Below are positions 3,039-18,571 of a DNA stretch of 64,000 nt, one piece after another (position 1 is the stretch's first letter; the number at the start of each line of letters is the position of its first letter). A model generated the notes under the pieces. The model was given only the letters and a program-made list of their open reading frames with translations. It ran no database searches and was not told where the DNA came from. Origin of the DNA: Alicycliphilus denitrificans K601 (lineage in GTDB: Bacteria; Pseudomonadota; Gammaproteobacteria; Burkholderiales; Burkholderiaceae_C); assembly GCF_000204645.1 (NCBI RefSeq), contig NC_015422.1, positions 1,691,001-1,755,000 of the forward strand. Direction: 5' to 3'. The position numbers and the translations under genes were made by a program.

Positions 3039-3366
3039 GAAAGAGAAGCCTACTCCACGTGCCATGGAGCACCACGACCTGCTGTCGGGGCTGATCCGCC
3101 TGCATGTGCTGCACCACGCAGCCGAGCAGGAGATCTACGGGCAATGGATGATCGACGAGCTGGCCCACCACGGCTACCGCCTCTCCCCCGGAACGCTGTA
3201 CCCGATGCTGCACAAGATGGAGCGCGACGGCTACCTCGTCTCCCGCCAGGAGCGTGAAGGGCGCACCGTGCGCAAGCTCTACACGATCACGCCCAAGGGC
3301 AAGGAAGGCTTGGCGCTGGCCAAGGACCGCATCCGGGAGTTCACCGGGGAGGCGATGCACAAATGA
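3037..3366 (+). CDS. PadR-family transcriptional regulator
   Basis: A 109-residue PadR winged-helix protein: the core LRLHVLHHAAEQEIYGQWM, the wing signature LSPGTLYPMLHKMERDGYL and the basic REGRTVRKLYTIT strand are typical. Its stop codon overlaps the chrA start (ATGA at 3363-3366), so the two are translationally coupled and the protein probably represses chrA until chromate or another signal appears. PadR genes are frequent partners of chrA. Confidence 0.88.
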   Translation: MKEKPTPRAMEHHDLLSGLIRLHVLHHAAEQEIYGQWMIDELAHHGYRLSPGTLYPMLHKMERDGYLVSRQEREGRTVRKLYTITPKGKEGLALAKDRIREFTGEAMHK

Positions 3367-4592
3367 CAGATTCCACCAACACCTTGCAGCATGAGGCCGC
3401 TGCCGCGCGCGGCTCACCCGTCGAAGTCTTCGGCGCCTTCCTCAAGCTGGGGCTGACCTCCTTCGGCGGGCCGATCGCGCATCTGGGCTATTTCCGCTCG
3501 GAGTTCGTCGAGCGTCGCCGCTGGCTGGATGACCGCAGCTACTCCGATCTGGTCGCCCTGTGCCAGTTCCTGCCGGGGCCGGCCAGCAGCCAGGTCGGTA
3601 TGGCGCTGGGGTTGGGCCGCGCGGGCTGGCTGGGGCTGCTGGCGGCCTGGGCCGGATTCACCTTGCCATCGGCGATTGCGCTGATCCTGTTCGCCTTTGG
3701 CATCGCCGAGTACCAGGGGCTGGCCCAGTCCGGCTGGGTGCACGGGCTCAAGGTCGTCGCCGTGGCCATCGTGGCGCAAGCGGTCTGGGGGATGGCCAAG
3801 TCGTTGTGCCCGGACCGGCCGCGCGCCGCGCTGGCCATTCTGGCGGCGCTGCTGACCATGGTCCTGCCCTCGGCCGCGGGACAGCTTGCCGCCATCGCGG
3901 TGGCAGGGCTGCTGGGCTGGTGGACATTGAAGATCGCGCAACCCGGCGGCGGCCACGCCCACAGCTACCCCGTCTCGCGCAAGCTGGGCATCGTGGCGCT
4001 GCTGCTGTTTGCCGCACCGCTCGTCGGGCTGCCCCTGTGGGCGGCAGCCACGGACTCGTCCACGATAGCCCTGCTGGAAGGGGTGTACCGCTCCGGTGCA
4101 CTGGTCTTCGGCGGTGGACACGTTGTGCTGCCGCTGCTGCAGGCCTCGGTGGTGCCCAGCGGCGTCGTGAGCAATGCCGACTTCCTGGCCGGCTACGGTG
4201 CGGCGCAGGCCGTGCCGGGGCCGCTGTTCACTTTCTCGGCCTACCTCGGCGCGGTCGCCCACGGACCGCTGCATGGCTGGATCGGCGGGCTGGCACTCCT
4301 GGGCACGATCTTCCTCCCCGCTTTTTTCATGCTGGTCGGTGCACTGCCGTTCTGGGAAGGGCTGCGCCACCGCGCGGGCATCCAGACGGCCATGGCCGGC
4401 ATCAACGCCGGCGTGGTCGGTATTCTGGTGTCCGCCCTCTATGACCCGGTATGGACGAGTGCCATCCACAGCAAGGCGGATTTTGGGCTGGCGCTGCTCT
4501 CGTTCGGACTGCTGACGGTGGGGCGCGTGCCGCCGGCGCTCGTGGTGCTGTTAGCCGGGCTGGTGGGCTGGGTCATGGCGATGGGCGTCTGA
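3363..4592 (+). CDS. chrA: Chromate transporter ChrA
   Basis: A 409-residue CHR-superfamily inner-membrane transporter of the bidomain (long-chain) class, which expels chromate. Two homologous CHR halves are seen: the first with FLKLGLTSFGGPIAHLGYF and QFLPGPASSQVG (about 20-80), the second with SGALVFGGGHVVLPLL and AQAVPGPLFTFSAYLG (about 240-300). The paired G-G-P and P-G-P motifs are family signatures. The start overlaps the padR stop by four bases. No chrB is present, so control is by PadR alone. Confidence 0.92.
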   Translation: MTDSTNTLQHEAAAARGSPVEVFGAFLKLGLTSFGGPIAHLGYFRSEFVERRRWLDDRSYSDLVALCQFLPGPASSQVGMALGLGRAGWLGLLAAWAGFTLPSAIALILFAFGIAEYQGLAQSGWVHGLKVVAVAIVAQAVWGMAKSLCPDRPRAALAILAALLTMVLPSAAGQLAAIAVAGLLGWWTLKIAQPGGGHAHSYPVSRKLGIVALLLFAAPLVGLPLWAAATDSSTIALLEGVYRSGALVFGGGHVVLPLLQASVVPSGVVSNADFLAGYGAAQAVPGPLFTFSAYLGAVAHGPLHGWIGGLALLGTIFLPAFFMLVGALPFWEGLRHRAGIQTAMAGINAGVVGILVSALYDPVWTSAIHSKADFGLALLSFGLLTVGRVPPALVVLLAGLVGWVMAMGV

Positions 4593-5335: not shown

Positions 5336-7387
5336 TCAAGCGGCCAGTGCCTCGGCGGGTTCATCCGCCATTGCCTCGGTATCCTCCGGGGCGTCCTGCT
5401 CCGGGCCTTCTTCCTGCGCGGCCTCCTGCGGGCCTTCGGCCTTGAAGATGGCGGGCATCCAGCCGGTGCCATCGGCCAGCCGCTCGGCCTCGCTGGCAAT
5501 GTCGGCCTTCTTGAGCTTCGCCAGCCGGGTGACGAATTCCGGTGCAAACGCGCCCACGGCATCCAGAATCACGGCCTTGGAAACGTGCTTGAAGTAGCCT
5601 TCTGCGGTCGGCTTCCACCATGCAGCCATGTCGAGGCCCACGGCCTGCGCCAGTTCCGCGCCGGGCTGGTGCGGCGTGGCGCGAGGCGTCACCACGTCCA
5701 CCGTGGAAGCCACGCACACGGCCAGCAGCCGCACCAGTTCGTCTTGCGGCTTCGCCAGCAGCGCGGCGAATAGTTCGGCGTTGTCCTCCGGCAAGGCTTC
5801 ACCGGCGACCTGTTGCAGTTCGCGCAGCGCCACGGCGGCGGGCGATTCCGGCCAGTCCGGGGCCATGCCTTCCAGTCGGTCTTGCACTTTCAGGCTCACG
5901 CCGAGCGGCAGGTCGTGGCCGTAGTGGCTTTCCTGCAAGACGGTCTGCACCATGCCATGCACCAGCGCGGCCAGCGCGACGTGCGGATGCCGTGCGACTT
6001 CGATTTGCAGCGCCGCCGTGCGATGGGCGCTCAACCACTGCGCCAGCCGGTCGGACAGGCTCGCGGCCTTGGGCGCGTCGTCGGCGTCCTCGTGCTCGTC
6101 GTTGGCGGCTTCGCCTTCGGTGCTGCCGAAACCGCGCCGCAGCTTTTCCAGCGTGCGCAGCGCCTTCGCCTCGGCTTCGCGCAGCAGGCCGCGATGAATG
6201 ACGGCTTCGCCGTTGCGGTCGATGGTGACGATGGCACCGGCCACCTCGCGCACATCGGGGGCATAGCCGTGCAAGGCGTCCTCCGCGTCTTGCAGTTCGC
6301 CGACCACCTGATCGCGACGCTGTTCCAGCTTCTCGGCCTTGGCCTCGTCCTCGGCGTCGCAAGCTTCTTCCAGTTCGGCGTCGATCTTTTCGAGGCGGGT
6401 TTCCAGCGAGGCGATGCGGCGGGCCTCGCGGGTGGTCGGCTCGCGGCGGTGGCGCGGGGCGTTCTGGAACGCCTGCCGTTCCTCGTAGGCCAGATGCGGT
6501 ACGGCCTCCACCCATGCCCAGCCCTCGGCGCGCACGTCCTCGGCCAGCGTTGCCAGCTTGTCGCGCACCAGCGTTTCCAGCACTGCGGTATCGGTGAGGT
6601 AGGTTCCGGCATCGCCTTCCGCGAACAGGTCGCGGCGGATGCCGCCGCCTGCCTGCTGGTAGGCGTCCAGCCCGACGAAGCGCACCAGCGCGTGCGTGGC
6701 GTCGATTTCGCGCTCGGTCAGGCGCTCGCGCAGCTTGGACGGGCTGCGCTGCCATTCCGGCGCACCATAGAACGCCGCTTCCTGCGCGGCGTGGTCATCG
6801 GTGATGGTCAAGGCCATCAACTGTTCCAGCGTCACGCCACCGGCCCGGTAGTCGGCCATGAGGCGCGGCGAGACGTTCGCCAGCTTCAAGCGGCGCTGCA
6901 CCACCAGCGGGGACACGCCGAAGTCGGCGGCTATGTCCTCGATGGGTCGGCCTTCCTTGACCAGCGCGGCGAAGGCCGCGAACTGGTCGGCGGGGTGCAT
7001 GTTCTCGCGCTGCACGTTCTCCGCGAGGCTGACGGTACGGGCGGACGCATCGGCCACCAGCAGGCACGGCACTTCGTAGTCGGTAGGGATGCGCATCTTC
7101 TTCGCCAGCAGCTTCAAGGCGGTCAGGCGGCGGTCGCCTGCCACCACCTCGTAAGCCTCGCCATCGGCGGAAAGGATGACGATCAGGTTTTGCAGCAGGC
7201 CGATGCGGGCAATGCTCGCGGCCAGTTCGGGGATGGACTGGCGCGGGGTCGTGCGGACGTTGCGCTTGGAGCGGCGCGGCAACAGTTGCGACAACGGAAC
7301 CAAGATCAGGTTCTTGGCCGGGTCGGCCACTTCCAGCGGTGAGGCGGCTTCGATGGCGACGGCTTCGGTTTTGAGTACGGCGTTCAT
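5336..7387 (-). CDS. ParB/Spo0J-like nuclease-family protein of ICE backbone
   Basis: A 683-residue protein with a ParB N-terminal fold at about 27-130 (VVAGDRRLTALK at 82-93 and ENVQREN at 123-129 are hallmark boxes) and an HTH near 149-170. The rest is long and acidic: a Glu/Lys-rich coiled coil around 340-400, then a region with no domain I know, and a Glu-rich tail. Plasmid ParB proteins are about 300 residues, so this is the large form found on ICEs, where no ParA partner sits alongside, as here. I start at ATG 7387, which has AGGAG nine bases upstream; longer readings run into a neighbouring gene. Its exact role (maintenance or regulation) is unproven. Confidence 0.85.
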   Translation of the reverse strand: MNAVLKTEAVAIEAASPLEVADPAKNLILVPLSQLLPRRSKRNVRTTPRQSIPELAASIARIGLLQNLIVILSADGEAYEVVAGDRRLTALKLLAKKMRIPTDYEVPCLLVADASARTVSLAENVQRENMHPADQFAAFAALVKEGRPIEDIAADFGVSPLVVQRRLKLANVSPRLMADYRAGGVTLEQLMALTITDDHAAQEAAFYGAPEWQRSPSKLRERLTEREIDATHALVRFVGLDAYQQAGGGIRRDLFAEGDAGTYLTDTAVLETLVRDKLATLAEDVRAEGWAWVEAVPHLAYEERQAFQNAPRHRREPTTREARRIASLETRLEKIDAELEEACDAEDEAKAEKLEQRRDQVVGELQDAEDALHGYAPDVREVAGAIVTIDRNGEAVIHRGLLREAEAKALRTLEKLRRGFGSTEGEAANDEHEDADDAPKAASLSDRLAQWLSAHRTAALQIEVARHPHVALAALVHGMVQTVLQESHYGHDLPLGVSLKVQDRLEGMAPDWPESPAAVALRELQQVAGEALPEDNAELFAALLAKPQDELVRLLAVCVASTVDVVTPRATPHQPGAELAQAVGLDMAAWWKPTAEGYFKHVSKAVILDAVGAFAPEFVTRLAKLKKADIASEAERLADGTGWMPAIFKAEGPQEAAQEEGPEQDAPEDTEAMADEPAEALAA

Positions 7388-7464
7388 GGTGATTTCTCCT
7401 AGCGGTGGGATGCAGCAGCGAGAGAAGCGGCAAGGGCTGCTGCCTGCCCCTGCCGCGTGGGGAT

Positions 7465-8289
7465 TCAGGCTTTCAACTGGCGCAGGCCATCGGCCAGCAG
7501 CCACAGGGCGCGATTCAGGCGCACGCTTTGGTCGATGCCCTGCACGGGCCGGGTGGTCTGGCGGCGGCCATTCGCTGCGCGGGCGGACAGGCCGCCTTTG
7601 GTCAAGTTCTCCTGCGTGCGGTTGAACACGCTCCACAGGTCGCGGCGGTCGTCGTCGTGGCGGCGCGGCATCAGGATTTGCGATTCCGTGATGGGCGCGG
7701 GCTTGTCCTCGTCGTACTTCAACGCCAGCGCAGCACGGGCGAACACTTCCGATTCCCCGGCGTCCAGCGTGATGGCGCGCATGGCATCGCGCGATTCCTG
7801 CGCCCGGTCGAAGCCGTGCAGGACTTCGTAAGCGCCTTCGATGACGTGGGCTGCTACGTCGCCCTTGTGCGGCACGCGCACGTCGGCCACGGTGTCGCCG
7901 CAGACAAGGCCATTGCTGCAAACGAAGCGAAACATCCCGGCCAGCATCTGATAGCTGCTGGTGCCGTCATGGGAGTTCAGCAGGATGATTTCGTTGGCCT
8001 CGCGTCCGTTGATCTGGCTGGCATGGCGCAGCCGGATCATGTGCTTGGTGTAGTCGCGGCGGTCGTCGTGGCGCACGCGGGTTTGCGTCACCATGAAGGG
8101 CTCGAAGCCTTCCCCGCGCAGTTCTTGCAGCACGGTTGCGGTGGGGATGTAGCTGTACCGCTCGGAGCGGCTTTCGTGCGGTGCCTCCGCGAAGATGGAC
8201 GGGGCCACGGCCCGGATTTGGTCATCCGACAAGGGACGTTCCGAACGCAGCACCGGGGAACGGGAAGCGAAGCGGGATGCGATTTGCAT
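7465..8289 (-). CDS. DUF932 domain protein
   Basis: A 274-residue DUF932 (phage/plasmid-like LGT_TIGR03299-type) protein. Typical features include RYSYIPTATVLQELRGEGFEP near 40-60, a TQTRVR segment and SSYQMLAGMFRFVCSNGLV near 135-153. Such genes are common on ICEs and plasmids, often with ParB-like, DUF2958 and RadC-like genes as here; the biochemical role is unknown. Start ATG 8289 has AGGAG at the correct spacing. It lies 77 bases upstream of the ParB-like gene on the same strand and may be co-transcribed with it. Confidence 0.83.
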   Translation of the reverse strand: MQIASRFASRSPVLRSERPLSDDQIRAVAPSIFAEAPHESRSERYSYIPTATVLQELRGEGFEPFMVTQTRVRHDDRRDYTKHMIRLRHASQINGREANEIILLNSHDGTSSYQMLAGMFRFVCSNGLVCGDTVADVRVPHKGDVAAHVIEGAYEVLHGFDRAQESRDAMRAITLDAGESEVFARAALALKYDEDKPAPITESQILMPRRHDDDRRDLWSVFNRTQENLTKGGLSARAANGRRQTTRPVQGIDQSVRLNRALWLLADGLRQLKA

Positions 8290-8632
8290 AGCATTTCTCC
8301 TGACAAAGAAAAAAGGTTTGCTGTTCACCGCATACCGGATTCCTAGATTCGGAAGCCCAGCCTTTCGGCTGTTCGGTGCGGTCGGCACGAGGAACCCGGT
8401 TGGCCCTGTTGCCACCGTCTTTCCTGAGTTCATCGCCCGCGACGGTCAGGAGCGCGCGGACGGGGGCCGTCAAGGAGGCAAGCGCAGGGTGGGTGCGGCC
8501 CGCAGGCGCAGCCGAGGACACGGCCCTGCGCGCCTTGACGGCACACGGCCGCGGGCTACAGTCGCGGTGAAGGTGATGAAGTCAGGGGAGACGGCTGGAC
8601 ATGGCCACGGCCCCTCAATACGCCGACCGCAC
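8290..8632. other. Non-coding leader region upstream of the DUF932 gene
   Basis: No convincing gene. The segment around 8440-8600 has pieces resembling the duplicated B unit found at 9887-10032 and 10672-10822 (for example GCCTTGACGGC followed by a GTGAAGG segment), in the same position upstream of a minus-strand gene and directly before an A unit. It looks like a third, diverged copy of the composite leader. Confidence 0.4.
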
Positions 8633-8772
8633 GGCAAGCGAAGCGCGCAGGCCCGGATCTAGGAATCCGGGCCGGAGGCGTCAGCCGAGCGGAGCGAGGG
8701 AACGATGGAAGCCCGAAGGGGGCGAGACTCGCGTAGCGAGGCTCGATGCGCAGCACGACAGCGCGACCGGCC
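8633..8772. repeat. Repeat unit A, copy 1
   Basis: About 140 bases closely matching 10842-10979. Shared blocks include GGCAAGCG, AGCGCGCAGGCCC, GCCGGAGGCGTCAGCCGAGC, GAGGGAACGATGGAAGCCCG and GCGAGACTCGC. Copy 1 is followed by GGCCATGTTTCTTGGCC, a small hairpin, and then by a plus-strand cargo gene. Short complementary blocks suggest a structured RNA or DNA element. Confidence 0.75.
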
Positions 8773-8815
8773 ATGTTTCTTGGCCGGGGACGCACGACTG
8801 TCCTACGATCCCTCT

Positions 8816-9484
8816 ATGGAGGAAACCATCATCAACAACGACGATCGTTTGGAGCACATGCTCCACCGCTCCAATGCCTTGCACGAACGTCTGGATGAAC
8901 TACTGGGCGACGCCGATTTCGATGGATCGCCCCGTGGCGAGTCAGCTCTTGGCATGTGCCTGGTCGCTATGGAGCATGCAACAGCGATGCGAGCATTGAT
9001 GGCGCTGCGACTACCCTCGTCCGCCGTCGGCCTCATGCGCCTGCAGTTCGAGGCCCTGACGCGGGCAATGTGGCTGCTCTACGCAGCCAGCGACGCAGCG
9101 ATCGACAAGCTGCTGGCGCCACTGACGCTGCAGAGCGAACAGGCGGCCAAGAACTTGCCTGGCGCCAGCGAAATGATTGAGCAGATCGGCAAGCGAGTCG
9201 GACAAGGCGCGCCGGCGGCTGCGCACCAAATGCTTTCGCATTTCAAGGATGTGACCTGGCACGGCATGAACTCGTTCGTGCATGGCGGCATTCATCCACT
9301 GCGGCGCAGTGCCGACGGCTTCCCGGTCGATCTTGCGCTACAGGTACTGCGCAGCTCGAACGGTCTGACGACCATGACCGGCATGACGATGGCAGTCCTC
9401 ACCGGCGACGAGGCCGTGGCCAAGCCCGTGAGTAAGATCCAGCCGGCATTCGCCGACTGCCTGCCGGATCTCCTGAAACCTTGA
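8816..9484 (+). CDS. Uncharacterised alpha-helical cargo protein
   Basis: A 222-residue protein of unknown function; I believe similar proteins are annotated as DUF6988 but cannot confirm it. It is largely helical, with MCLVAMEHATAMRALMALRL and MRLQFEALTRAMWLLYAASD in the first half, then a conserved-looking WHGMNSFVHGGIHPLRR at about 148-164 whose histidines could form a site. The ATG at 8816 is chosen because upstream in-frame codons fall in repeat A. It lies on the opposite strand to the backbone genes, inserted between two leader repeats, which marks it as cargo. Confidence 0.6.
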   Translation: MEETIINNDDRLEHMLHRSNALHERLDELLGDADFDGSPRGESALGMCLVAMEHATAMRALMALRLPSSAVGLMRLQFEALTRAMWLLYAASDAAIDKLLAPLTLQSEQAAKNLPGASEMIEQIGKRVGQGAPAAAHQMLSHFKDVTWHGMNSFVHGGIHPLRRSADGFPVDLALQVLRSSNGLTTMTGMTMAVLTGDEAVAKPVSKIQPAFADCLPDLLKP

Positions 9485-9514
9485 ACGAGGCATCTTGCGA
9501 CGCCCCGCGCGAAA

Positions 9515-9865
9515 TCATTCGATGATCCGCCCGGCCAGCCGCGCATCGCGCGCATAGGCACTCAGGCGCTTCTCGGCACGGAAGTGCAGATCGCGTTCGA
9601 CCGGCAACCCGAGCCGCCCGCGCACGGCCGCCAGCTCCTGCAGGCTGACCCAGCCGATTTCCGGCATCCCCAGGCCCAAATCGCACAGCCCAAAGGCGTG
9701 GTCGTGGTCATCGGGATCAATCTCGGTCAGCAGCCAGGTCGCGCCGGCGTCCGGCGTGAACAGCTTGACCACGGGGGCCGGATCGAAGTCCGGGTTCTCC
9801 AAGGATTCGCGGCCGTTGGCCAGCAACACGATGCGCTGCTCGTCGGTGATGAGTGCGTTGTTCAT
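9515..9865 (-). CDS. DUF2958 domain protein
   Basis: A 116-residue DUF2958 protein, a small family carried by ICEs and plasmids with no known activity. Features include PVVKLFTPDAGATWLLTEIDPDD (about 31-53) and FGLCDLGLGMPEIGWVSL. The family usually lies among RadC-like and DUF932 genes, as here. The start at 9865 has AGGAG seven bases upstream. A 150-base leader (unit B) precedes it. Confidence 0.85.
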   Translation of the reverse strand: MNNALITDEQRIVLLANGRESLENPDFDPAPVVKLFTPDAGATWLLTEIDPDDHDHAFGLCDLGLGMPEIGWVSLQELAAVRGRLGLPVERDLHFRAEKRLSAYARDARLAGRIIE

Positions 9866-9886
9866 GGTGAACTCCTGAAAGGAAGC

Positions 9887-10032
9887 CGGGCGGAATTGCC
9901 CGACCCTTCCGGGGCACGGCGCAGCGCAAGCAGTCAGGGGTCAACGACGGCCGCCAGGACGCAAGCGCCATCGGCGCGCAGCCCTTGACGGCGAGAACGC
10001 CGTGGCACGATGAAGGGAACAGCAAGACCGCC
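9887..10032 (-). repeat. Repeat unit B, copy 1 (leader of the DUF2958 gene)
   Basis: Shares most of its length with 10672-10822: CGGGCGGAATTGCCCG, ACGGCGCAGCGCAAGCAG, CAGGGGTC, ACGGCCGCCAGGACGCAAGC, CCTTGACGGCGAGAACGCC and AGCAAGACCGCC. On the minus strand the block ends in the hairpin CGGGCAATTCCGCCCG shortly before the ribosome site of the downstream gene. The equal position before two different genes points to a shared 5' leader or promoter. Confidence 0.75.
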
Positions 10033-10062
10033 TCCCTCGCACCTCCACGCACCCGGGTTTTC

Positions 10063-10110
10063 GGCAAGTGCGCAGCACGCGCAGGCCCGCGAGGGCCGGA
10101 GTCGCGCCGC
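10063..10110. repeat. Partial repeat unit A next to B copy 1
   Basis: GGCAAGTGCGCAGC, GCGCAGGCCC and GAGGGCCGGAG match the start of repeat unit A (8633 and 10842), but the rest of the unit is missing. It keeps the B-then-A order of the composite element. Confidence 0.5.
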
Positions 10111-10120
10111 CGGGCGCAGC

Positions 10121-10141
10121 AAAAAGGGGGCCGAAGCCCCC
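10121..10141 (-). terminator. Terminator of the RadC-like gene
   Basis: On the minus strand GGGGGC-TTCG-GCCCCC is followed by TTTTT, a six-bp GC stem with a stable tetraloop and a T-run, starting six bases after the RadC-like stop. Confidence 0.85.
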
Positions 10142-10146
10142 AATGG

Positions 10147-10653
10147 TCAAAGCAGGCCGCGTTCGGCGAATGACGTGGTGCGAGTCCCCGCAACGATGAC
10201 GTGATCCAGCGTGCGAATGTCCACCAGCGCCAGCGCCTGCCGAAGCTGCGAGGTCATCGCCTTGTCGGCCGCGCTCGGCTCGGAGTTTCCGCTCGGATGG
10301 TTGTGCGAAACGATGACCGCCGCCGCATTGAGCCGCAGCGCCTGCTTCACCACCTCGCGCGGATGCACCTCGGCGGCGTCGATCGTGCCGCGGAACATCT
10401 CCACGTAGTCGATCAGCCGATGGCGCGTGTCGAGGAACAACACCGCGAAGACTTCGTGCTCGAAGCCGGCCAGCTTGGCGCGCAGGTAGTCCTTCACCGC
10501 CTCCGGCGAAGTGAACGCCTCGCCGCGCTGCATCTTCTGTTCGATGACCTGGCGCGCGGCTTCCAGAATCTGGTCGGCGTCCGCCAGCCGATAGCGCCCA
10601 CGGCCATCGCGCACCATCAGCGGGGTGTCGAGAGTGAGGGTCAGTTGCGACAT
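10147..10653 (-). CDS. RadC-like JAB-domain protein
   Basis: A 168-residue RadC/JAB1-MPN-type protein lacking the N-terminal HhH of housekeeping RadC. The JAMM metal site is complete: E67 before VFAVLFLD, H117 and H119 in SHNHPSGN, and D130 in PSAAD. The family is carried by many plasmids, ICEs and genomic islands; a metalloprotease or DNA-processing role has been suggested but is not established. The ATG at 10653 has GGAG eight bases upstream. It is preceded by repeat units B and A. Confidence 0.88.
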   Translation of the reverse strand: MSQLTLTLDTPLMVRDGRGRYRLADADQILEAARQVIEQKMQRGEAFTSPEAVKDYLRAKLAGFEHEVFAVLFLDTRHRLIDYVEMFRGTIDAAEVHPREVVKQALRLNAAAVIVSHNHPSGNSEPSAADKAMTSQLRQALALVDIRTLDHVIVAGTRTTSFAERGLL

Positions 10654-10671
10654 GATCGTGCTCCGGTTGCT

Positions 10672-10822
10672 CGGGCGGAATTGCCCGGAACCGGTGCCAG
10701 CACGGCGCAGCGCAAGCAGTCAGGGGTCGCAGACGGCCGCCAGGACGCAAGCGCGCATGGCGCGCGCCGCCCTTGACGGCGAGAACGCCGTGGTACGGTG
10801 AAGGGAAACAGCAAGACCGCCC
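10672..10822 (-). repeat. Repeat unit B, copy 2 (leader of the RadC-like gene)
   Basis: Second copy of the unit at 9887-10032, with the same blocks in the same order and a few substitutions and indels. It lies directly upstream of the RadC-like gene on the minus strand, again ending in CGGGCAATTCCGCCCG. Confidence 0.75.
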
Positions 10823-10841
10823 CATGCCATACACGAACCCT

Positions 10842-10979
10842 GGCAAGCGGAGCGCGCAGGCCCAGCAGGGCCGGAGGCGTCAGCCGAGCGTCGCGAGGGA
10901 ACGATGGAAGCCCGCAGGGGCGAGACTCGCGCAGCGGGGCTTGATGCGTAGCACGACAGCGCGGCACGACCGGGGACGC
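10842..10979. repeat. Repeat unit A, copy 2
   Basis: Close copy of 8633-8772. Like copy 1 it ends with a CGGGGACGC block and is followed on the plus strand by cargo genes, here the TIR/SLOG operon. Copies 1 and 2 therefore both mark a junction between backbone and cargo. Confidence 0.75.
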
Positions 10980-11065
10980 CCGAAATCGGCTATCTTTGAA
11001 GGAGATTCCCGCATTGGGTTTCGTAAGGTCAGATAGGCGAGAACACTGAAATCACAAGGAAGAGC

Positions 11066-12208
11066 ATGGCCGCCCTCTATCAACTTGCAGTGCTTGGTTC
11101 GCCAACCGACGCCCAGATTTCTGAGCTTGAAGAAATCGTCGGAACTGCCGTAGGCATGTTCAACTTGCGACTAGGACATGAAGTTGGATGGGAGGTGCGC
11201 CCGGAAGCGTTTAACCCCGACCAACAGCGCTCATCCGCTGCAGTATTTTTCGGGGGCGACAATCCACCTCTCGCCAACGTGGCGAAGTTGCTGGAGCGAG
11301 GCATCCCGCTACTGCCGATAGCATCCGACGTCAATCGAGTTAACGCAGAGATTCCTGAATTACTGCGACCTCTCAACTGCTTAGCCTATGCCGCCAACGG
11401 GTCACAGCGTGTCGCGACCGCTTTACTTGAGTGTGCGGGGTTGCTACCTCGCCAGCGTCGAGTGTTCGTAAGTTACCGCCGGGGCGAAGCCCGTGAGGCA
11501 GCCTTGCAGCTCTTTGACGCCTTATCTGCTCGGCTATTCGATGTGTTTCTCGATACGCATGGGATTCCACCTGCGGAAGATTTTCAGACGATGCTATGGC
11601 ATCGCCTTTGCGATTCCGACGTTCTTGTGATGCTTGACACGCCAGGCTACTTTGAAAGCCGCTGGACAAGCGCAGAGTTCGGACGCGCTCTGGCGAAAGG
11701 CATCAGCGTCTTACGGGTTGGCTGGCCAGACTGCACGCCATCTGCGCGAACAGCCACCGCCAGTCGCGCAGAATTGTTGCCCGACGAAGTGGATGCGGCC
11801 ACAGGACGCCTCGCGGACAGCGCTGTGGAGCGAATCTGTCTACAGCTCGAAGAAGTTCGCAGCCAAAGCCATGCGGTCCGTTCCGTCAATCTAGTGAGCA
11901 ATTTGCGCAACGCTATTCAAACGATTGGCGGTCAACTTGTCGGCGTTGGACCGAACAAGGCGGTCTATATCCGACTGCCGGATGGCCGGAATGTCGTCGT
12001 CTACCCAACAGTTGGTGTCCCCACGTCGACCACGTTGCATGACGCATCCACCAATTCGCCAGATCAATCGGTTGCCGTCGTTTACGATCATGTTGGCTTG
12101 CATCCCCGGTGGCTGGGGCATTTGGACTGGCTGGGCCAGCATATCCACTCTGCGCGGTGGGTCAAAGCCAGCGAAGCTGGATGGCAATTTGCGGACTGGG
12201 AGGCCTGA
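11066..12208 (+). CDS. TIR-domain protein with uncharacterised flanking domains
   Basis: A 380-residue protein whose middle (about 131-222) is a TIR domain: RRVFVSYRRGEAREAALQLF as strand A/helix A, VFLDTHGIPPAEDF as the BB region, CDSDVLVML as strand D, and SRWTSAEFGRAL with E204 where TIR NADases carry the catalytic Glu. Residues 1-130 look like an alpha/beta fold (VFFGGDNPP, IPLLPIASDVN); 270-380 form a second unassigned domain ending in an aromatic-rich stretch (LDWLGQHIHSARWV). I place neither. It starts after AAGGAAG and the next gene follows after three bases. In bacteria TIR enzymes cleave NAD+ or make cyclic ADP-ribose signals after phage sensing; that role here is inference. Confidence 0.75.
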   Translation: MAALYQLAVLGSPTDAQISELEEIVGTAVGMFNLRLGHEVGWEVRPEAFNPDQQRSSAAVFFGGDNPPLANVAKLLERGIPLLPIASDVNRVNAEIPELLRPLNCLAYAANGSQRVATALLECAGLLPRQRRVFVSYRRGEAREAALQLFDALSARLFDVFLDTHGIPPAEDFQTMLWHRLCDSDVLVMLDTPGYFESRWTSAEFGRALAKGISVLRVGWPDCTPSARTATASRAELLPDEVDAATGRLADSAVERICLQLEEVRSQSHAVRSVNLVSNLRNAIQTIGGQLVGVGPNKAVYIRLPDGRNVVVYPTVGVPTSTTLHDASTNSPDQSVAVVYDHVGLHPRWLGHLDWLGQHIHSARWVKASEAGWQFADWEA

Positions 12209-12211
12209 ATC

Positions 12212-12799
12212 GTGAGCGCAATCTTCCTTTCAGCCAGTGTCCCACTTGTCGGCCGCGGCTCGTATCACGAGACCGCCAATCCATTCCTCATCCAATGCGC
12301 TGTGAGGGAACTGGTCATGGCCGTCATTCGTCAGCACAAGATCGTGTGGGGAGGCCATCCCGCTATCACGCCTATGATCTGGAGCATTTGTGAGGATTTG
12401 GGTGTCGATTATTCTGGGGCCGTGGTTCTGTATCAGAGCACGTTCTTCAAGGATCGTTACCCGGAAGAAAACGACCGTTTTCACAATGTAGTATTCACCA
12501 ATGCAGTTGCCGGTGACAGAGAGGCGAGCCTGCTGCTAATGCGGGAAGAAATGCTGTCGCGCGATGATCTCGTTGCCGCTGTTTTCATCGGCGGCATGGA
12601 AGGAGTGGAAGCCGAGCATGAACTCTTCAGGCAATTCCACCCCGCCGCCAAAGTTCTGCCCGTACCGTCGCCAGGCGGGGCGGCCTTGAACTTGGCCAAA
12701 GATCAAGGTTATTTCGCCGATGCGGATCTTGGTGATGTGGACTTCGCGCAACTCTTTCACACGCACCTCGCATTGAACATTCAAGGTGCAGCGAGTTGA
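12212..12799 (+). CDS. SLOG-like nucleotide-ligand-binding protein
   Basis: A 195-residue stand-alone Rossmannoid protein. KIVWGGHPAITPMIW (about 43-57) and AVFIGGMEGVEAEHELF (about 123-139) resemble the two ligand loops of the SLOG superfamily, whose members bind nucleotide-derived ligands and include the sensor domain of Thoeris ThsA. It has no attached effector. It begins with GTG three bases after the TIR gene and lies 41 bases before a second TIR-type gene, so it could sense, bind or process the TIR product. The SLOG call rests on motif pattern only and needs a profile or structure comparison. Confidence 0.6.
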   Translation: MSAIFLSASVPLVGRGSYHETANPFLIQCAVRELVMAVIRQHKIVWGGHPAITPMIWSICEDLGVDYSGAVVLYQSTFFKDRYPEENDRFHNVVFTNAVAGDREASLLLMREEMLSRDDLVAAVFIGGMEGVEAEHELFRQFHPAAKVLPVPSPGGAALNLAKDQGYFADADLGDVDFAQLFHTHLALNIQGAAS

Positions 12800-12840
12800 G
12801 TCTCCTCTGCAGATTTACATGATCCAACAAAGGACTCGCC

Positions 12841-13326
12841 ATGCCACGGAAAATCTTCTATAGCTTCCACTATCAACGCGACAGTTGGCGCGCCTCCAAG
12901 ATACGGAATATTGGTGTTGTTGAGGGCAACCAACCAGCAAGCGATAACAAATGGGAAGAAGTGAAGCGAGGCGGCGAGGCCGCAATCAAGCGCTGGATCG
13001 ACGATCAGCTGCAAGGACGGACATGCACAATTGTTCTGGTCGGAGCCGAAACGGCGAATCGCCCCTGGATTCGATATGAGATTGAGCAGTCATGGAATAG
13101 TGGCAAGGGACTCTTAGGGATACGAGTCCATAAGCTGCTGGACCACAACCAGCAACCATCAGTTGCCGGGGCCAATCCATTTGACTCATTTACCTTGAAC
13201 GACGGTAGAAAGCTATCCACCGTCGTCCGCATGTACGATCCACCAGGGGCCACGAGCAGTGCGGCCTATAACCACATCAGTGACAACCTGTCGGGCTGGA
13301 TTGAAGCGGCGATCGCTGCGCGCTAA
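12841..13326 (+). CDS. TIR-like (DUF1863/ThsB-type) protein
   Basis: A 161-residue protein of the TIR-like DUF1863 family, to which Thoeris ThsB belongs. IFYSFHYQRDSWRASKIRN (5-23) with EGN is the family start; TCTIVLVGAETANRPWIRYE (61-80) is the strand-D and helix region with E80 in the catalytic Glu position; GKGLLGIRVHKL follows. It is the third gene of the plus-strand operon and ends 16 bases before the oppositely oriented UDG-like gene. It probably makes or degrades an NAD-derived molecule. Confidence 0.72.
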   Translation: MPRKIFYSFHYQRDSWRASKIRNIGVVEGNQPASDNKWEEVKRGGEAAIKRWIDDQLQGRTCTIVLVGAETANRPWIRYEIEQSWNSGKGLLGIRVHKLLDHNQQPSVAGANPFDSFTLNDGRKLSTVVRMYDPPGATSSAAYNHISDNLSGWIEAAIAAR

Positions 13327-13342
13327 GAAGCCAAGCCTCTCG

Positions 13343-14005
13343 TCAAAACAACGACCCAGTGCTCATGGGGCGCCCATAGAGCTCCGAGATTTGCCTCTGG
13401 AACTGGGTCTGTCCTCCATAGCTAGGATGCCTCACGCAAATCACGGGTACGGAATCCGTGATGCGATGGGCCGCAGCGGCGGCATCGTTGCCGATGGCGA
13501 CGATGCGAGAGGGACGTAGCAAGACAATGAGCTGTTGGAGCAGTTCTTCGCCGGCTCGCCTCTCACGCGCGTTGTGCTGCCGGTTGGTGAACGGATCTCC
13601 TGATTCGTGCGGATGCAGAGGGAAAACGTTCCAGAGGAAGATGCGGGCATCAATATGTTCCAGCATGCCCCATATGACCGCGGCGGTTCGTTCGGCCACA
13701 GCACTGCCTATCGTCGGCCGTTCGGCGACCTGGTCGAGATTCCAACGCCTAGCGTGCTGGCTTATGTGAAGGTCGTCGGTCAGGGCTAACCCAGTGCGGC
13801 GTCCTCCGCGATATCCGAGGTCTCGTCCAATCCATATCGCGTCTACGGGTTCCTCGGTTGCACGACGCAACATGGCGGACAGTGCAGCAGCACGGCGACG
13901 TGGTGCATCGCGTCGATCATGAACTTCACAACGATCCGAATACGGATTGAAGCAGTCTTCGAACTGCAGAGAAGCAACTGCATCAACGAACGGGTGGATC
14001 TTCAT
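13343..14005 (-). CDS. Uracil-DNA-glycosylase-superfamily protein
   Basis: A 220-residue protein that seems to belong to the UDG superfamily: DAIWIGRDLGYRGGRRTG (55-72) stands where the GEAPG loop lies, FLWNVFPLHPHESGDPF (123-139) carries the conserved Asn, and VRHPSYGG with H193 is the C-terminal motif. The first loop lacks the usual acidic residue, so catalysis or base specificity may differ. It is the last gene of the minus-strand operon and overlaps the MazG-like gene by four bases (ATGA). It could excise an altered base or damage invading DNA; this is inference from the family and context. Confidence 0.62.
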   Translation of the reverse strand: MKIHPFVDAVASLQFEDCFNPYSDRCEVHDRRDAPRRRAAALSAMLRRATEEPVDAIWIGRDLGYRGGRRTGLALTDDLHISQHARRWNLDQVAERPTIGSAVAERTAAVIWGMLEHIDARIFLWNVFPLHPHESGDPFTNRQHNARERRAGEELLQQLIVLLRPSRIVAIGNDAAAAAHRITDSVPVICVRHPSYGGQTQFQRQISELYGRPMSTGSLF

Positions 14006-15138
14006 TTTTCAGACTCAAGTGGCATGTATTTGATGGTGCGTTGTTCTCGGTTTCCAATGATCCAGCCGCCTTGATTTTCCTTGAGCTGGCGAAAGACAGC
14101 ATAGCCATCCAGGATTGCCTTTTCCCAGAGCTTTAGCGGACATTTCTCCACTTCGTAACCACTCACGAACTCACCAATGGTCTTGAGAACCCCAAGTGAG
14201 ACCTTTTCCTGATTCTCGAAGAAATTCAGCTCCTTGGCTCTGGAGAAAATCCACGCTGAAAGCCCTTCTTCCACGACGATGGCCCGACCACTGTCCTGCT
14301 CTTCATCGTATTTCGGATTGCTCTTTCGCTTGTGCTTGATCAATGCCCGCATCACAGGTGACCAGTGCAGGATTGCTGCATAAGCAAAGTGGAAGACATC
14401 ATGGAACCGGTAGCCATCGCGATCGGCAATGTTGTCCGTCAGAGGGTCTCCAATGAATACGCCCTTCCATTGGAGGTAACTCTTGCCACTGCCTCGCTGA
14501 TTGACCCGGATTTTGAAATCCCTGGGTAGCTGTTCCTCAATTCCAAACTCACTGTCGAAATCAAGGCCAGCCAGGTCTTCTGCCTGCGGCTCCAAGAACG
14601 CGCCGCGAGCTTTCCGGAGATTTCCGCGAGCCACCTCAGAGAACGCAAGTTCGGCCGCATGAATTGCATCCAGGTAAGCCCGTGCGAAAGCAATCAAGTC
14701 TGCGCGTGCAGGCGTACTTCCAAGTAGCGCTGCCGCTGACTGCCCCAAACGCACCAAGGTGGCATCCAACGAAGCAGTCGCGGCGACAGGCACAGCGATA
14801 TAGGCTAACGCACCTTCGGTGATGTCACTTGCAGCGCCCACATTCTTGAAGTTTCCGTGGTTCGCAGCTTCCGAGAATATCTCTTCGAGAGGAATCTGCA
14901 GGCGCCTGCAGATTGCAGCCAAATACCAGAGGGTGTCGCCAAACTCTTCTTCTGCCGCCTTCTTGAAACCCGGGTAAGCCGTTCTCTCTCGAACACTTTT
15001 CTTGGCCGTAGCCATTATTCCGCCGACTTCTCCGTATAGACCTTGGAGGACAGGATTGAAGTCATTCGGGTTGAGTACGTCTGTGGCTGCAATTTCCGCA
15101 GCGTAATCCGAGAGCAAGAGGGAGCCTTCCTTTTTCAT
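14002..15138 (-). CDS. MazG-like NTP pyrophosphohydrolase-family protein
   Basis: A 378-residue protein. Residues about 28-85 look like an all-alpha MazG-type NTP-PPase: LYGEVGGIMATAKK and AAEEEFGDTLWYLAAICRRL give E37 and the E65-x-x-D68 pair. The usual second Glu of the first pair is G40, so metal binding may be weakened. The C-terminal half has a conserved-looking helical block DGYRFHDVFHFAYAAILHWS (about 245-265) with two His and an Asp, of unknown role. Start ATG 15138 has AGGTGA upstream; it follows the Nmad2-like stop by three bases and overlaps the UDG-like gene. Such enzymes clean or deplete nucleotide pools. Confidence 0.68.
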   Translation of the reverse strand: MKKEGSLLLSDYAAEIAATDVLNPNDFNPVLQGLYGEVGGIMATAKKSVRERTAYPGFKKAAEEEFGDTLWYLAAICRRLQIPLEEIFSEAANHGNFKNVGAASDITEGALAYIAVPVAATASLDATLVRLGQSAAALLGSTPARADLIAFARAYLDAIHAAELAFSEVARGNLRKARGAFLEPQAEDLAGLDFDSEFGIEEQLPRDFKIRVNQRGSGKSYLQWKGVFIGDPLTDNIADRDGYRFHDVFHFAYAAILHWSPVMRALIKHKRKSNPKYDEEQDSGRAIVVEEGLSAWIFSRAKELNFFENQEKVSLGVLKTIGEFVSGYEVEKCPLKLWEKAILDGYAVFRQLKENQGGWIIGNREQRTIKYMPLESEK

Positions 15139-15141
15139 CGG

Positions 15142-15768
15142 TCACCTGCGAAGAGTCAGCCATTCGAATGGAGCGCCCTGATAACCGCTCACGTCAAAGC
15201 TGCGAATCCATTTCTCAAGGTTCGCAATCAGTTGCGCATCGTCAAAGGTGGTTAGACCTATTCCCGTTTTGCATAAGGGCCGATCTTGCTGGTCTTTCAG
15301 TTCCTCGGGAAATTCCGGACCCTCGCCCCCGAAGTACACAAAATCATTACTGATCAGGACCCTGTTGACGCCCGTATCACGGGCAACATGGTCCGGGTTG
15401 AGCGTGCCATTGGGGCGGGAATGAAATGAGTCTCGCTGCTGCCAAGCGGCTCCAGGCGCGGCCCTGAAGTAGATGTTGTCCCCGCAACTTTGCTTCCGAC
15501 TCCCATTGCGGTACGGCATCTTGTATTCAAACCGTGGATCTGCGCCATATTCGTCGAATGTCATCGCCTCGGTAACGCGCATCGCGTACACGAGACGCCC
15601 GCCACGTCGGACAGTTCTATCATTGCTGCCACTGCCGACCACCCAATCACCGATGTCAGCGGATCGGCGGATATTGGGTTTGCAGGTCGCAAGCGTGCAG
15701 TAGCCATAGAAAGGGTTGGGCGCGAAACCACTGTCGTATCGCACCACATAGGAGTGAATGCGAGCCAT
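15142..15768 (-). CDS. Nmad2-like (nucleotide modification associated) protein
   Basis: A 208-residue protein beginning MARIHSYVVRYDSGFAPNPF, followed by GYCTLATCKPNIRRSADIGD and WVVGSGSNDRTVRRGGRLVYA. I recognise this as the pattern of the Nmad2 family, a putative nucleotide-modification-associated domain reported in phage and conflict islands; its chemistry is unknown. Cys and basic residues in the first 60 positions and GDNIYFR near 100 are notable. The ATG at 15768 overlaps the TIR stop by one base (TGATG), so the two are translationally coupled; a longer reading would overlap the TIR gene. Confidence 0.65.
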   Translation of the reverse strand: MARIHSYVVRYDSGFAPNPFYGYCTLATCKPNIRRSADIGDWVVGSGSNDRTVRRGGRLVYAMRVTEAMTFDEYGADPRFEYKMPYRNGSRKQSCGDNIYFRAAPGAAWQQRDSFHSRPNGTLNPDHVARDTGVNRVLISNDFVYFGGEGPEFPEELKDQQDRPLCKTGIGLTTFDDAQLIANLEKWIRSFDVSGYQGAPFEWLTLRR

Positions 15769-16235
15769 CAGCAGGGATGCCGCTTGAGTGGAACCGGGTC
15801 GCAGGCACCACCGTCTGGCTTTTCCCACGAGTCCTTCCCGTTGATCGCGTCAATGATCGCATCGCCGTTCCACCCAACCAAGGCGTCGGCATATTCTTTC
15901 AGGGCCTCTGGAAGGTCGCATTCCTTCTCGCCATGCTCCCAAACACCGACAATGCGCTTGCCCTGTTTGGCCGCATATTCGATTTCCCAGTTCACCCAAT
16001 CGCTATTCTTGGTCTGGGGCGAAACGTAGCAAATGAACACTCCAGCCCAGTTGATGGCAGGGGCAAGGATCTGCGTCTTTATGTAGTGCTCATCGGTGGC
16101 ATTGTTGAACTTCCCTGTATGGATGGAGGAATCCCTGACCTCGATCCCTTTTGGAGCTAACAGATCCTTCAGCTTCTGGAGTCCGTGATCGTCCTTATGG
16201 ACATGGCTGATGAACACGTTCCTTTTCTCTGCCAC
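15768..16235 (-). CDS. Small TIR-domain protein (ThsB-like)
   Basis: A 155-residue single-domain TIR protein: NVFISHVHKDDHGLQKLKDL (6-25), GIEVRDSSIHTGKFNN as the BB loop, ILAPAINWAGVFICYVSPQT and SDWVNWEIEYAAKQGKRIVG with W80 and E84 in the Glu motif. It leads the minus-strand operon, with a GTG start behind a strong GGAGGTGA site. TIR proteins of this size act as signal-producing NADases in Thoeris-type systems. No SIR2- or macro-domain effector is adjacent. Confidence 0.77.
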   Translation of the reverse strand: MAEKRNVFISHVHKDDHGLQKLKDLLAPKGIEVRDSSIHTGKFNNATDEHYIKTQILAPAINWAGVFICYVSPQTKNSDWVNWEIEYAAKQGKRIVGVWEHGEKECDLPEALKEYADALVGWNGDAIIDAINGKDSWEKPDGGACDPVPLKRHPC

Positions 16236-16323
16236 CTGTCACCTCCATTGTTCTTACATGGTTTGAAGATCGTAACTGTGTTTTCGGCCGCTGTGGCAGG
16301 AAATGCTGACCCGTTTGCCTTGA

Positions 16324-16626
16324 TCAAATAATTGCCTGCAAACCCTTGTCGGCGATGACGTTGAGCAGCTTGAGGGCCGGCCCGGTGGGATGGGTTTCGC
16401 CTTGCTCCCACTTTCGCACGGTCGACGCGGTGGTGTGCAGGTGAAGTGCGAACACCGGCTGGCTGAACTTCAACCGTTCGCGCAGGTGTTTGATGTCGGC
16501 AGCACTGAACTCCCGCACCGGCGGCGGGCAGATCGCGTCGAACTCGCGCATCGTCACCTTGCCGATCGCTCCCGCTTCGTGGAGCGCAGCCAGGTCGCCA
16601 CGCAGGGATTCAATGATCTTGCTCAC
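16324..16626 (-). CDS. HTH antitoxin, HigA/XRE type
   Basis: A 100-residue DNA-binding protein with an XRE-type HTH at about 45-75 (LRERLKFSQPVFALHLHTTA followed by TVRKWEQGETHP). It starts with GTG at 16626, inside the last 17 bases of the toxin gene, so expression is coupled. It should neutralise the toxin and repress the promoter at 17009. Toxin-first gene order is usual for HigBA-like pairs. Confidence 0.82.
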   Translation of the reverse strand: MSKIIESLRGDLAALHEAGAIGKVTMREFDAICPPPVREFSAADIKHLRERLKFSQPVFALHLHTTASTVRKWEQGETHPTGPALKLLNVIADKGLQAII

Positions 16627-16993
16627 AATGCACCTCCAATAACACGCCCGAGTGCAACGCCTTCGACAAAGCCTCGGCGGACAGTTCCAGGAACACCTTG
16701 CCGGCGAATTGCAGCGCCTTCTTCTCGTCCTGCGTGATATTCGCCTTGTCGCTCTTGGGGAACCCATGCAGGAATACGTAGCGGCTGCCGATCCGGGCCG
16801 ACAGCAGCGTGCGGTAGCCGCCGCTCTTGCCGCCGCCGGATCGGGCAACCCGCTTCTTGTAGAGGAAGCCGCCCAAGTCCGCGTCAATCAGACCGCTTTC
16901 CATCTCTTGAACCGCCTTGCACAAGGCAGCATCAGGCAGCTTTTCGCCCGCCTGCCACCGTGCAAAGTCCTTCCGCTTGAGGACGTGGGTCAT
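16610..16993 (-). CDS. RelE-type toxin (PF06296-like)
   Basis: A 127-residue RelE/ParE-superfamily toxin. YKKRVARSGGGKSGGYRTLL (45-64) and YVFLHGFPKSDKANI (72-86) are typical of the RelE group that pairs with XRE antitoxins. Basic residues K47, R48, R51 and R61 could contact mRNA on the ribosome. ATG 16993 is chosen because it has AGGTC just upstream and follows the promoter; upstream in-frame codons lie within the operator region. The pair may stabilise the element next to its integrase. Confidence 0.82.
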   Translation of the reverse strand: MTHVLKRKDFARWQAGEKLPDAALCKAVQEMESGLIDADLGGFLYKKRVARSGGGKSGGYRTLLSARIGSRYVFLHGFPKSDKANITQDEKKALQFAGKVFLELSAEALSKALHSGVLLEVHCEQDH

Positions 16994-17005
16994 CTTGACC
17001 TCCAA

Positions 17006-17025
17006 ACTATACCCGTAACGGGCAT
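17006..17025 (-). promoter_or_regulatory. Promoter and operator of the toxin-antitoxin pair
   Basis: A palindrome ATACCCGTAACGGGCAT (17009-17025; core CCCGT-A-ACGGG) overlaps a good minus-strand -10 box TATAGT (17011-17006), 12 bases before the toxin start codon. This fits autorepression by the antitoxin. Confidence 0.65.
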
Positions 17026-17132
17026 ACTTTTCCAGTCCCCAGTGCGATGCACGGGCGGGGAGGGCTGCCGAGCCGATTGGCGTAACGGCGACACGGCAAT
17101 CAGGGCCGACATGCCGAGGCACTGGTCACCGA

Positions 17133-18335
17133 TCATGCGGTCACCTCTTTGGGTTCTTGCCGCGTGCCGACGACCGACTTGCGCCGGCTGGCTACCAACT
17201 CGGCTGCCTTACGCACCGGGTCGTCCTCGGTGTGGACGTAGCGCATGAACATCGCCACGGTCTTGTGCGCGGTTAGCGCCATGCCGACCTTGACGGGGAT
17301 GCCGGAATTGGCAATGTCGGTCGCTGAGCGGTGGCGTATGCCGTGGGTGCCAACCTTCGGCACGCCGGCGCGATCAAGGATTCGGCGCCACGCCTGATAG
17401 TAGGAATGGGGGCCGAGCGGCTTGTCATGGTCGAGGATGGCCGGGCATACGTAGGGCGAATTGCCGTAGCGAGGTGCATTCGTCAGCAACCGGCGGGCTT
17501 CCTCGCTCAACGGCTTGGACATATCGCCCGTCTTGCTGTCCGGCCAGACAACCCGGCCATTGGGCAAGTCGAGCCAATCCCACTGCAACAGCAGGATCTC
17601 CGACATGCGGGCCGCGAACTCGAATTGCAGCCGGACGGCCAGCAGATAGATGGGATGTTCCAGGCCCTCGGCCTCGGCTTTGTCCAAGTAGGCGAACAGG
17701 CTGACCATCTGCTCGTCGGTGATAAGGCGGGTCGAGCCTTTCTCCGGGTACTTGGGTACGTGACGGCAAGGATTGGAGCCATCGGGCCGGTAGCCCCACA
17801 GTTCGGCCAGGTTGAACATCTTGCGGACGAGCGACAGTACGCGGTTGGCCTGCGTGGGGGACCTCTCCATGCGCTTCATCAGCGCGGTGATGTCGTGGCG
17901 CGTGACCTCGTGAACCTTCTTGCTGCCGAAGGCTGGGATGACGAAGTTGTCGATCTGGTACTGGTAGCTGGCCTGGGTGCTGGGCTTGTTGTGCGGCTTG
18001 GAGTGGTCATCCATGAACCGGCCGCACAGTTCCTTGACCGTCGGCGCCTTGCGGGCTTCGGCCTTGTCGAGTCCGGGATCGCCCCCGCGCCGGACTTCGG
18101 CCAGCCAGTCTTGGGCCAGCGACCGGGCCTGTTCGACCGTCAGCTCGCCGAACTGGCCGAGTGCCGGCTTGCGCCGCACGCCGGAGTTCGTGCGGTACTG
18201 AACCATGAAGACCTTGCGGCCCGTTGGTGTTATCTTGCACAAGAAGCCCGGAACGAGCGTATCCCGGAGTTCCACATCGCAGGTTTGCGCCTGCGCCGTG
18301 TCAACGACGGACTTGGTGAGTTTGATCTTCGCCAT
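17133..18335 (-). CDS. int: Tyrosine-type integrase with DUF4102 domain
   Basis: A 400-residue integrase: N-terminal DUF4102-like arm-binding region (1-95), SAM-like core-binding domain (about 98-190) and catalytic domain (about 200-375). Catalytic residues are visible: R243 in AARMSEIL, K268 in DSKTGD, H331 and R334 in HGIRH, H357 and nucleophile Y366 in FMRYVHTED. It lies about 175 bases from the tRNA-Leu scar, in the usual int-next-to-att arrangement, so it should catalyse insertion into and excision from tRNA-Leu. Confidence 0.95.
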   Translation of the reverse strand: MAKIKLTKSVVDTAQAQTCDVELRDTLVPGFLCKITPTGRKVFMVQYRTNSGVRRKPALGQFGELTVEQARSLAQDWLAEVRRGGDPGLDKAEARKAPTVKELCGRFMDDHSKPHNKPSTQASYQYQIDNFVIPAFGSKKVHEVTRHDITALMKRMERSPTQANRVLSLVRKMFNLAELWGYRPDGSNPCRHVPKYPEKGSTRLITDEQMVSLFAYLDKAEAEGLEHPIYLLAVRLQFEFAARMSEILLLQWDWLDLPNGRVVWPDSKTGDMSKPLSEEARRLLTNAPRYGNSPYVCPAILDHDKPLGPHSYYQAWRRILDRAGVPKVGTHGIRHRSATDIANSGIPVKVGMALTAHKTVAMFMRYVHTEDDPVRKAAELVASRRKSVVGTRQEPKEVTA

Positions 18336-18511
18336 GAGGTGCTCCTGAAAGGCCCCGATTCCAGGGGCCGGCTAGGAGCCAGGCGGAGGGGAACCGGGGC
18401 GGTTTGCATCGCGCACCGGGATATGATCGAAGGCACTGGCCTCGGGGAAAACCTGTTACAGCAAGCCTCATCAAAGTCCATCGTTAGCCCGGTGCGGATG
18501 CCATGCTCTGG

Positions 18512-18571
18512 CTTAAAATCCGCCGCTTCCTGCAAAGGGGCGTGCCGGTTCGACCCCGGCTCGGGGCACCA
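18512..18571 (+). other. Attachment site: displaced 3' end of tRNA-Leu(UAA)
   Basis: The anticodon-loop TTAAAA, the variable arm, the T arm (GCCGG-TTCGACC-CCGGC), the acceptor strand TCGGGGC, discriminator A and CCA of a leucine tRNA are all present. The matching 5' half (GCCCCGA, D arm) is absent: the bases before 18511 are unrelated. The fragment is what remains when an element inserts into the 3' half of a tRNA gene and restores the gene at its other end. Confidence 0.8.

Follow-up and report, generated by a model that had tools for sequence, protein, structure and literature searches.

Our analysis of a 64,000-nucleotide (nt) stretch of the Alicycliphilus denitrificans K601 genome (contig NC_015422.1, positions 1,691,001 to 1,755,000), here referred to as the window, concerned an island of seven genes, designated A to G, in which TIR and SLOG domains lie next to predicted handlers of DNA bases and nucleotides. 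A first-pass annotation had proposed that these genes form one undescribed conflict system. The open reading frame (ORF) listing of the window confirmed all seven genes at the positions given there and bore out their strands, their overlaps and the short gap between the two converging operons, and Pfam upheld the domain calls, namely TIR, SLOG, DUF1863-type TIR, uracil-DNA glycosylase (UDG), MazG and Nmad2 (Table 1). Genes A and B of the plus operon (A-B-C) are separated by 3 bases; within the minus operon (G-F-E-D), D and E overlap by 4 bases, E and F are 3 bases apart, and F and G overlap by 1 base. The start of gene F was placed at the ATG at 15768 by alignment with relatives, and the mechanical ORF list has a GTG at 15828. 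The G+C content is 53 to 58% across 11 to 17 kb of the window, compared with 63 to 69% over the 11 kb on the left side and 63 to 70% over the 5 kb on the right side. This anatomy of the island is near certain.

Table 1. Genes and other features of the island, in window coordinates
Feature	Position	Strand	Assignment or remark
ParB_N and DUF932 island genes	5336-8364		common to Cupriavidus from 6156 onward
Imperfect direct repeats	8669-8765/10868-10963 and 9914-10019/10700-10807		89-94% alike; flank DUF6988-DUF2958-RadC
DUF6988 gene	8813-9484		PF22491, 236 bits; PADLOC candidate PDC-S52
Gene A	11066-12208	+	TIR_2 (Pfam)
Gene B	12212-12799	+	LD_cluster3 = SLOG cluster 3 (PF18180, 270 bits)
Gene C	12841-13326	+	ThsB_TIR (PF08937, 102 bits); DUF1863 of the first-pass annotation
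Gap between converging operons	13327-13342		16 bases between the stops of C and D
Gene D	13343-14005	-	UDG superfamily (PF03167, 31.1 bits, cut-off 24.3)
Gene E	14002-15138	-	MazG_C (Pfam, 278 bits); dUTPase/MazG-like front half
Gene F	15142-15768	-	Nmad2 (Pfam, 248 bits); predicted YTH/EVE/ASCH-like fold
Gene G	15768-16235	-	ThsB_TIR (PF08937, 79 bits); opens the minus operon
RelE-type toxin and HTH antitoxin-like pair	16324-17122		Pfam; between minus operon and integrase
Tyrosine integrase	17133-18335	-	PF00589, PF13356
tRNA-3'-end-like sequence (our own reading)	18544-18570	+	just beyond the right border (18526); occurs once in the genome

The first two genes of the plus operon exceeded the curated cut-offs of NCBIfam equivalog models (release 20), A as Thoeris_type3_ThcB4 (NF058526; 484 bits against a cut-off of 220) and B as Thoeris_type3_ThcA (NF058525; 256 bits against 110), and their homologues in other loci receive the same names. 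Genes A and C also match the PADLOC ThsB models PDLC00434 and PDLC00433, respectively, and residue E204 of gene A, presumably the catalytic glutamate of its TIR domain, is kept in 47/47 aligned relatives. Gene C found no match among the NCBIfam release 20 models, and a profile search with gene B against solved structures returned none. By the NCBIfam models of A and B, the plus operon is a type III Thoeris system, in which ThcB4 is accompanied by the SLOG protein ThcA and by another TIR of the ThsB type; it can thus be assigned to a described Thoeris-type system and is not the undescribed element that it had been taken for. The likeness to type III Thoeris lies in the adjacency of A and B, both over their curated cut-offs, with an extra ThsB-type TIR nearby, and the difference in C, E, F and G, which have no NCBIfam match, and in D, which stays far under the cut-off, the comparison being with these models. 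A search of the open-licence literature found no description of type III Thoeris, nor of ThcA in connection with Thoeris. That all seven genes constitute a single undescribed system was ruled out, since NCBIfam names the plus operon and the two operons reassort.

The minus operon (TIR-Nmad2-MazG_C-UDG), by contrast, is a distinct, real and conserved unit. Scanning genomes with aligned F sequences yielded 287 related loci (here and below, individual loci are numbered with the prefix L). We retained the best 80 and identified their neighbours with profiles made from the window together with eight plasmid loci. Within these 80 loci, F is adjoined by G in 77, by E in 74 and by D in 66, and all four genes are present in 65. 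Thinning F at 90% identity left 59 non-redundant loci, with G in 56/59, E in 54/59, D in 47/59 and the complete G-F-E-D set in 46/59. The protein distances among D, E, F and G correlate with r values of 0.87 to 0.98 in each of the two sets compared (25 loci and 16 loci), after loci with an F distance of at most 0.05 had been dropped and with host relatedness not controlled for. The full seven-gene layout recurs in 10/80 loci (L009, L012 to L019 and L023), with other genera among them, one of the ten being a Tistrella mobilis plasmid record that was also read as L003; the arrangement is therefore neither a product of chance nor unique to this genome. We found neither an unrelated known system to which the minus operon could be assigned nor, in the open-licence literature, a description of it as a system. 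Of the first-pass interpretation, a conserved TIR-based island with the minus operon as a genuine recurrent unit is supported, and the undescribed status of the plus operon, which already bears a name, is not. MazG, MazG-C, NMAD and UDG domains, the same names as in the minus operon, appear among the predicted, unvalidated systems in the accessible text of the DefensePredictor study (PMC13092281), the main text of which differs in lacking the words TIR and Thoeris. Damaged copies of Nmad2 were seen in L054 (9004-9728), where the gene ends early beside ORFs read as transposase-like, and in L052 (6627-7269), where it is split across frames.

In the minus operon, gene G matches the PADLOC ThsB model PDLC00418 over its full length (312 bits), and E84, which we take to be the catalytic glutamate of its TIR domain, is kept in 86/87 aligned relatives. 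The predicted fold of gene F appears to resemble the YTH/EVE base readers, the EVE-HNH endonuclease VcaM4I (6yex) standing in the fourth row of the Foldseek matches to this model, and W42 and W109 are invariant in 58/58 sequences; unlike VcaM4I, F has no nuclease domain and is paired with a TIR gene. A word search of the EVE survey PMC7641849 showed that its text mentions neither Nmad, MazG nor Thoeris. For gene E, the predicted fold of the front half appears to resemble dimeric dUTPases, and a profile search with this half retrieved iMazG (2q5z, E value of 2.8e-5) and DCTPP1 (6sqw, E value of 8e-4); the Pfam MazG model has no match to the E protein of the window and matches those of four relatives. 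In the register that we assume for its metal motif ExxE...ExxD, the motif is incomplete: E37, E65 and D68 are present in 47/47 sequences, and position 40 is G (27 sequences) or S (20 sequences). The MazG_C half gave no informative fold among the matches listed, which span residues 2 to 187, and its comparison with the 5-hydroxymethyl-deoxyuridine (5-hmdU) kinase domain produced no match. Gene D matches the NCBIfam UDG models far under their cut-off and retrieved only weak family 4 UDGs in a profile search against solved structures; D62, N126 and H193, which presumably correspond to known UDG residues, are each kept in at least 95% of 75 sequences. Among the phage sequences searched, B, D and F had no relative, and E had a single one that was weak and partial. 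Collectively, the predicted folds of F and E would point to recognition of bases and dUTP-like nucleotides.

The neighbourhood of the operon was examined in a flank census of loci with complete G-F-E-D and with at least 4 kb to the left and at least 5.5 kb to the right of F, which reduced the 80 loci to 54 and the 59 non-redundant loci to 40. A SLOG-bearing module adjoins the operon in 33/40 non-redundant loci (46/54 before thinning): TIR plus ThcA (A+B) in 16, a long TIR plus SLOG cluster 2 in 13, and a SIR2 gene of the ThsA kind in 4. The remaining non-redundant loci carry a patatin-type gene (2 loci), a SLOG-patatin gene (1 locus) or nothing recognised (4 loci), and some loci have a patatin-type gene as well. 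SLOG cluster 2 was confirmed by Pfam (PF18163) in L053, L076, L086 and L103. Among 85 loci examined, ThcA takes four arrangements relative to the operon (26, 5, 2 and 1 loci) and the SLOG cluster 2 gene three (13, 6 and 1 loci). The divergence of the SLOG cluster 2 pair follows that of the operon closely (r of 0.79 to 0.91 over 16 loci, reached by 0/500 permutations), and that of A/B follows it loosely (r of 0.37 to 0.53, a level that 1 to 22 of 500 permutations attain). In a control scan with PADLOC, profile-matched ORFs were removed and 100 of the remaining 340 flanking ORFs, none longer than 700 amino acids, were picked at random; no model exceeded 2/100 among the first 25 of the 127 matched models listed. 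This ruled out a generic defence-island effect as the entire cause, and the linkage of the operon with SLOG modules is strongly supported for the sampled relatives.

A SIR2 gene lies beside the operon in seven loci. Its identity as ThsA was given by PADLOC in L001, L035 and L041 and by Pfam in L001 and L041, and the other SIR2 loci were recognised with a one-sequence profile; these PADLOC calls, together with the ThsB-family TIRs C and G, make up the likeness to type I Thoeris. In L041, L044 and L051, a search at E values of up to 0.1 with four TIR profiles plus five seed sequences detected no TIR gene other than G, and further TIR genes are present in L001, L035, L046 and L048. In known Thoeris systems, the signal is made by the TIR protein ThsB and answered by ThsA, according to the accessible part of PMC11204291; the accessible part of a review (PMC9503650) likewise presents TIR domains as signal makers and SLOG domains as signal binders. 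As the only TIR detected beside a SIR2 gene, G is the probable source of the signal in these three loci, and, most simply, G would be the signal maker for the neighbouring SLOG effector wherever one is found. The island in the window differs from type I and type II Thoeris in that no SIR2, STALD or macro domain was found in the 15 island ORFs scanned (ten in 11066-18335 and five in 5336-10653). The first-pass annotation was thus correct that no SIR2 or macro-domain effector is adjacent here, whereas relatives carry SIR2-SLOG or SLOG-patatin genes beside the same four genes. In L001, a gene annotated as a "CBASS cGAMP-activated phospholipase" (2434-4050) has a SLOG-cluster-2-like domain ahead of a patatin domain, and L110 (6696-8309) holds a gene of the same make-up; judging from this architecture, the ligand of the SLOG-patatin protein may be a TIR-derived signal.

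We propose, at a probability of about 0.4, that the minus operon makes a signal in the manner of ThsB, is tuned to abnormal pyrimidines and feeds exchangeable SLOG effectors. In such a system, E, D and F would encounter the abnormal pyrimidines of an infecting phage, whether as DNA bases resembling dU or 5-hydroxymethyl-dU or as the corresponding nucleotides; F itself or its bound base would license G; G would produce an NAD-derived signal; and the neighbouring SLOG protein, here ThcA, would respond to it. We infer the ligand and which way the signal runs, and likewise that there is any activity. Where a Thoeris system has more than one ThsB protein, these are believed to recognise different infection markers (PMC11204291, accessible part). 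The composition of the operon suggests that bacteria may use unusual DNA bases to raise an alarm on infection. In its fully specified form, G-F-E-D would be a Thoeris sensor whose TIR is triggered by non-canonical pyrimidines once these are recognised by a reader of the YTH/EVE kind, a pseudo-enzyme that binds dUTP and a glycosylase that excises bases, and which feeds the adjacent SLOG effector (ThcA, SLOG cluster 2, SIR2-SLOG and possibly SLOG-patatin); we regard this version as unlikely. Were it true, phages that evade restriction by base replacement would betray themselves by doing so. Overall, Thoeris-type TIR signalling is joined here with a conserved base-handling operon, and the mechanism is a testable inference. 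TIR enzymes are common to bacterial, plant and animal immunity, and the trigger of most bacterial TIR systems is unknown; by tying a TIR to a glycosylase, a dUTPase-like protein and a putative reader of bases, the operon offers abnormal pyrimidines as a concrete class of trigger or target. The exchange of SLOG partners beside one operon would, if the proposal holds, show natural mixing of signal makers and effectors.

Several relatives place pyrimidine enzymes near the operon. A dTMP-kinase-like gene lies beside it in L053 (Pfam) and in L052 and L103 (our own profile), and an annotated thymidylate synthase is found near E-D in L005. In L123 (6983-9624), TIR and Nmad2 genes are followed by a protein with the 5-hmdU DNA kinase helical domain (PF18723, 279 bits), preceded by a 166-amino-acid ORF without a Pfam match. 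These neighbours would provide context, not chemistry, for the pyrimidine link.

Some loci hint instead at E and D as effectors. L053 and L103 contain a second TIR-Nmad2 pair (G'-F'), followed by a patatin-type gene at the position of E-D; E-D occurs without TIR or Nmad2 in L004 and L005; and an IMG/VR contig (L124, 5718-8591) encodes MazG_C, UDG, a 144-amino-acid ORF without a Pfam match and Nmad2, with no recognised TIR. This contig also carries a primase gene, as in a satellite-like carrier. All three arrangements would fit G and F sensing and signalling while E-D act as direct effectors, E draining or diverting a pyrimidine nucleotide and D stripping bases from DNA, which would stop the phage and perhaps the cell, with ThcA as a parallel second response. 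There is precedent in Brig1, a UDG-superfamily protein and proven base-excising effector (PMC11078745, accessible part), which likewise lies in a defence island with a ThsA-like gene nearby; it differs in immunising alone, whereas D stands at the end of a TIR operon, the likeness being one of superfamily. The absence of one metal-motif glutamate from E in 47/47 sequences is, however, odd for a working pyrophosphatase, and a SLOG module is already at hand in most loci of the census. The first-pass suggestion that the response lies within the MazG/UDG/Nmad2 part is accordingly weakened by the SLOG neighbours and by ThcA being a SLOG protein itself, while the patatin loci L053 and L103 keep it alive. 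We consider E-D as effectors a serious contender but rather unlikely, and lean toward E-D as sensor because the SLOG company is steady.

A further explanation is that two unrelated defence systems share islands and that their adjacency reflects hitch-hiking. In even samples of 369 genomes of the class and 398 of the phylum, the genome under study being counted each time, ThcA was found in 2/369 and 8/398 genomes, respectively, and Nmad2 in 6/369 class genomes. In the seven other ThcA loci A stands beside B (weakly in L116), and the four minus-operon genes are present in 0/7 within the stretch examined. The five other Nmad2 loci comprise four distant lone Nmad2 genes and L117, which has G-F-E-D and, over the stretch examined, no SLOG module. 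Among plasmid records, 29 contain ThcA and 17 contain F, and ThcA stands without the four-gene operon in L099 to L102. This separability, the loose co-divergence of A/B with the operon and the presence of other defence genes in the flanks, such as DarTG and type I methylase models (PADLOC), all favour hitch-hiking. Yet three classes of SLOG module account for the 33/40 loci, compared with at most 2/100 for the other PADLOC models listed, the SLOG cluster 2 pair stably co-diverges with the operon, and there are loci in which G is the sole TIR found beside a ThsA-like gene. We therefore hold hitch-hiking to be distinctly unlikely. Very improbable is a housekeeping or self-marking role, in which the minus operon modifies or cleans the host DNA or nucleotide pool and the TIR stands guard, firing when a phage disturbs this: such guard-type logic is known in other defence systems, and enzymes like the dUTPase-like, UDG and kinase neighbours also serve in repair and pool cleaning, but the operon is rare, patchy, and plasmid- and island-borne.

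We read the island as a mobile cassette, probably serving defence, in which two TIR modules are linked. Its 12.4 kb from 6156 to 18526 are 99.1% identical to Cupriavidus basilensis KF708 (L009), and an integrase gene lies near the right border, just beyond which we read a tRNA-3'-end-like sequence, although ARAGORN called no tRNA at this position. Past the border, L009 again resembles the window at 20.5 to 21.7 kb (74 to 75%), and this resumed resemblance indicates that both islands occupy the same chromosomal site. The DUF6988 family is newly implicated in defence in the accessible part of PMC13092281, and the island thus bears another likely defence gene. Finally, 8xMP membrane-protein genes lie directly upstream of the TIR-Nmad2 pair in L072 (7873-8304) and L085 (7982-8422) and are possible further effectors.

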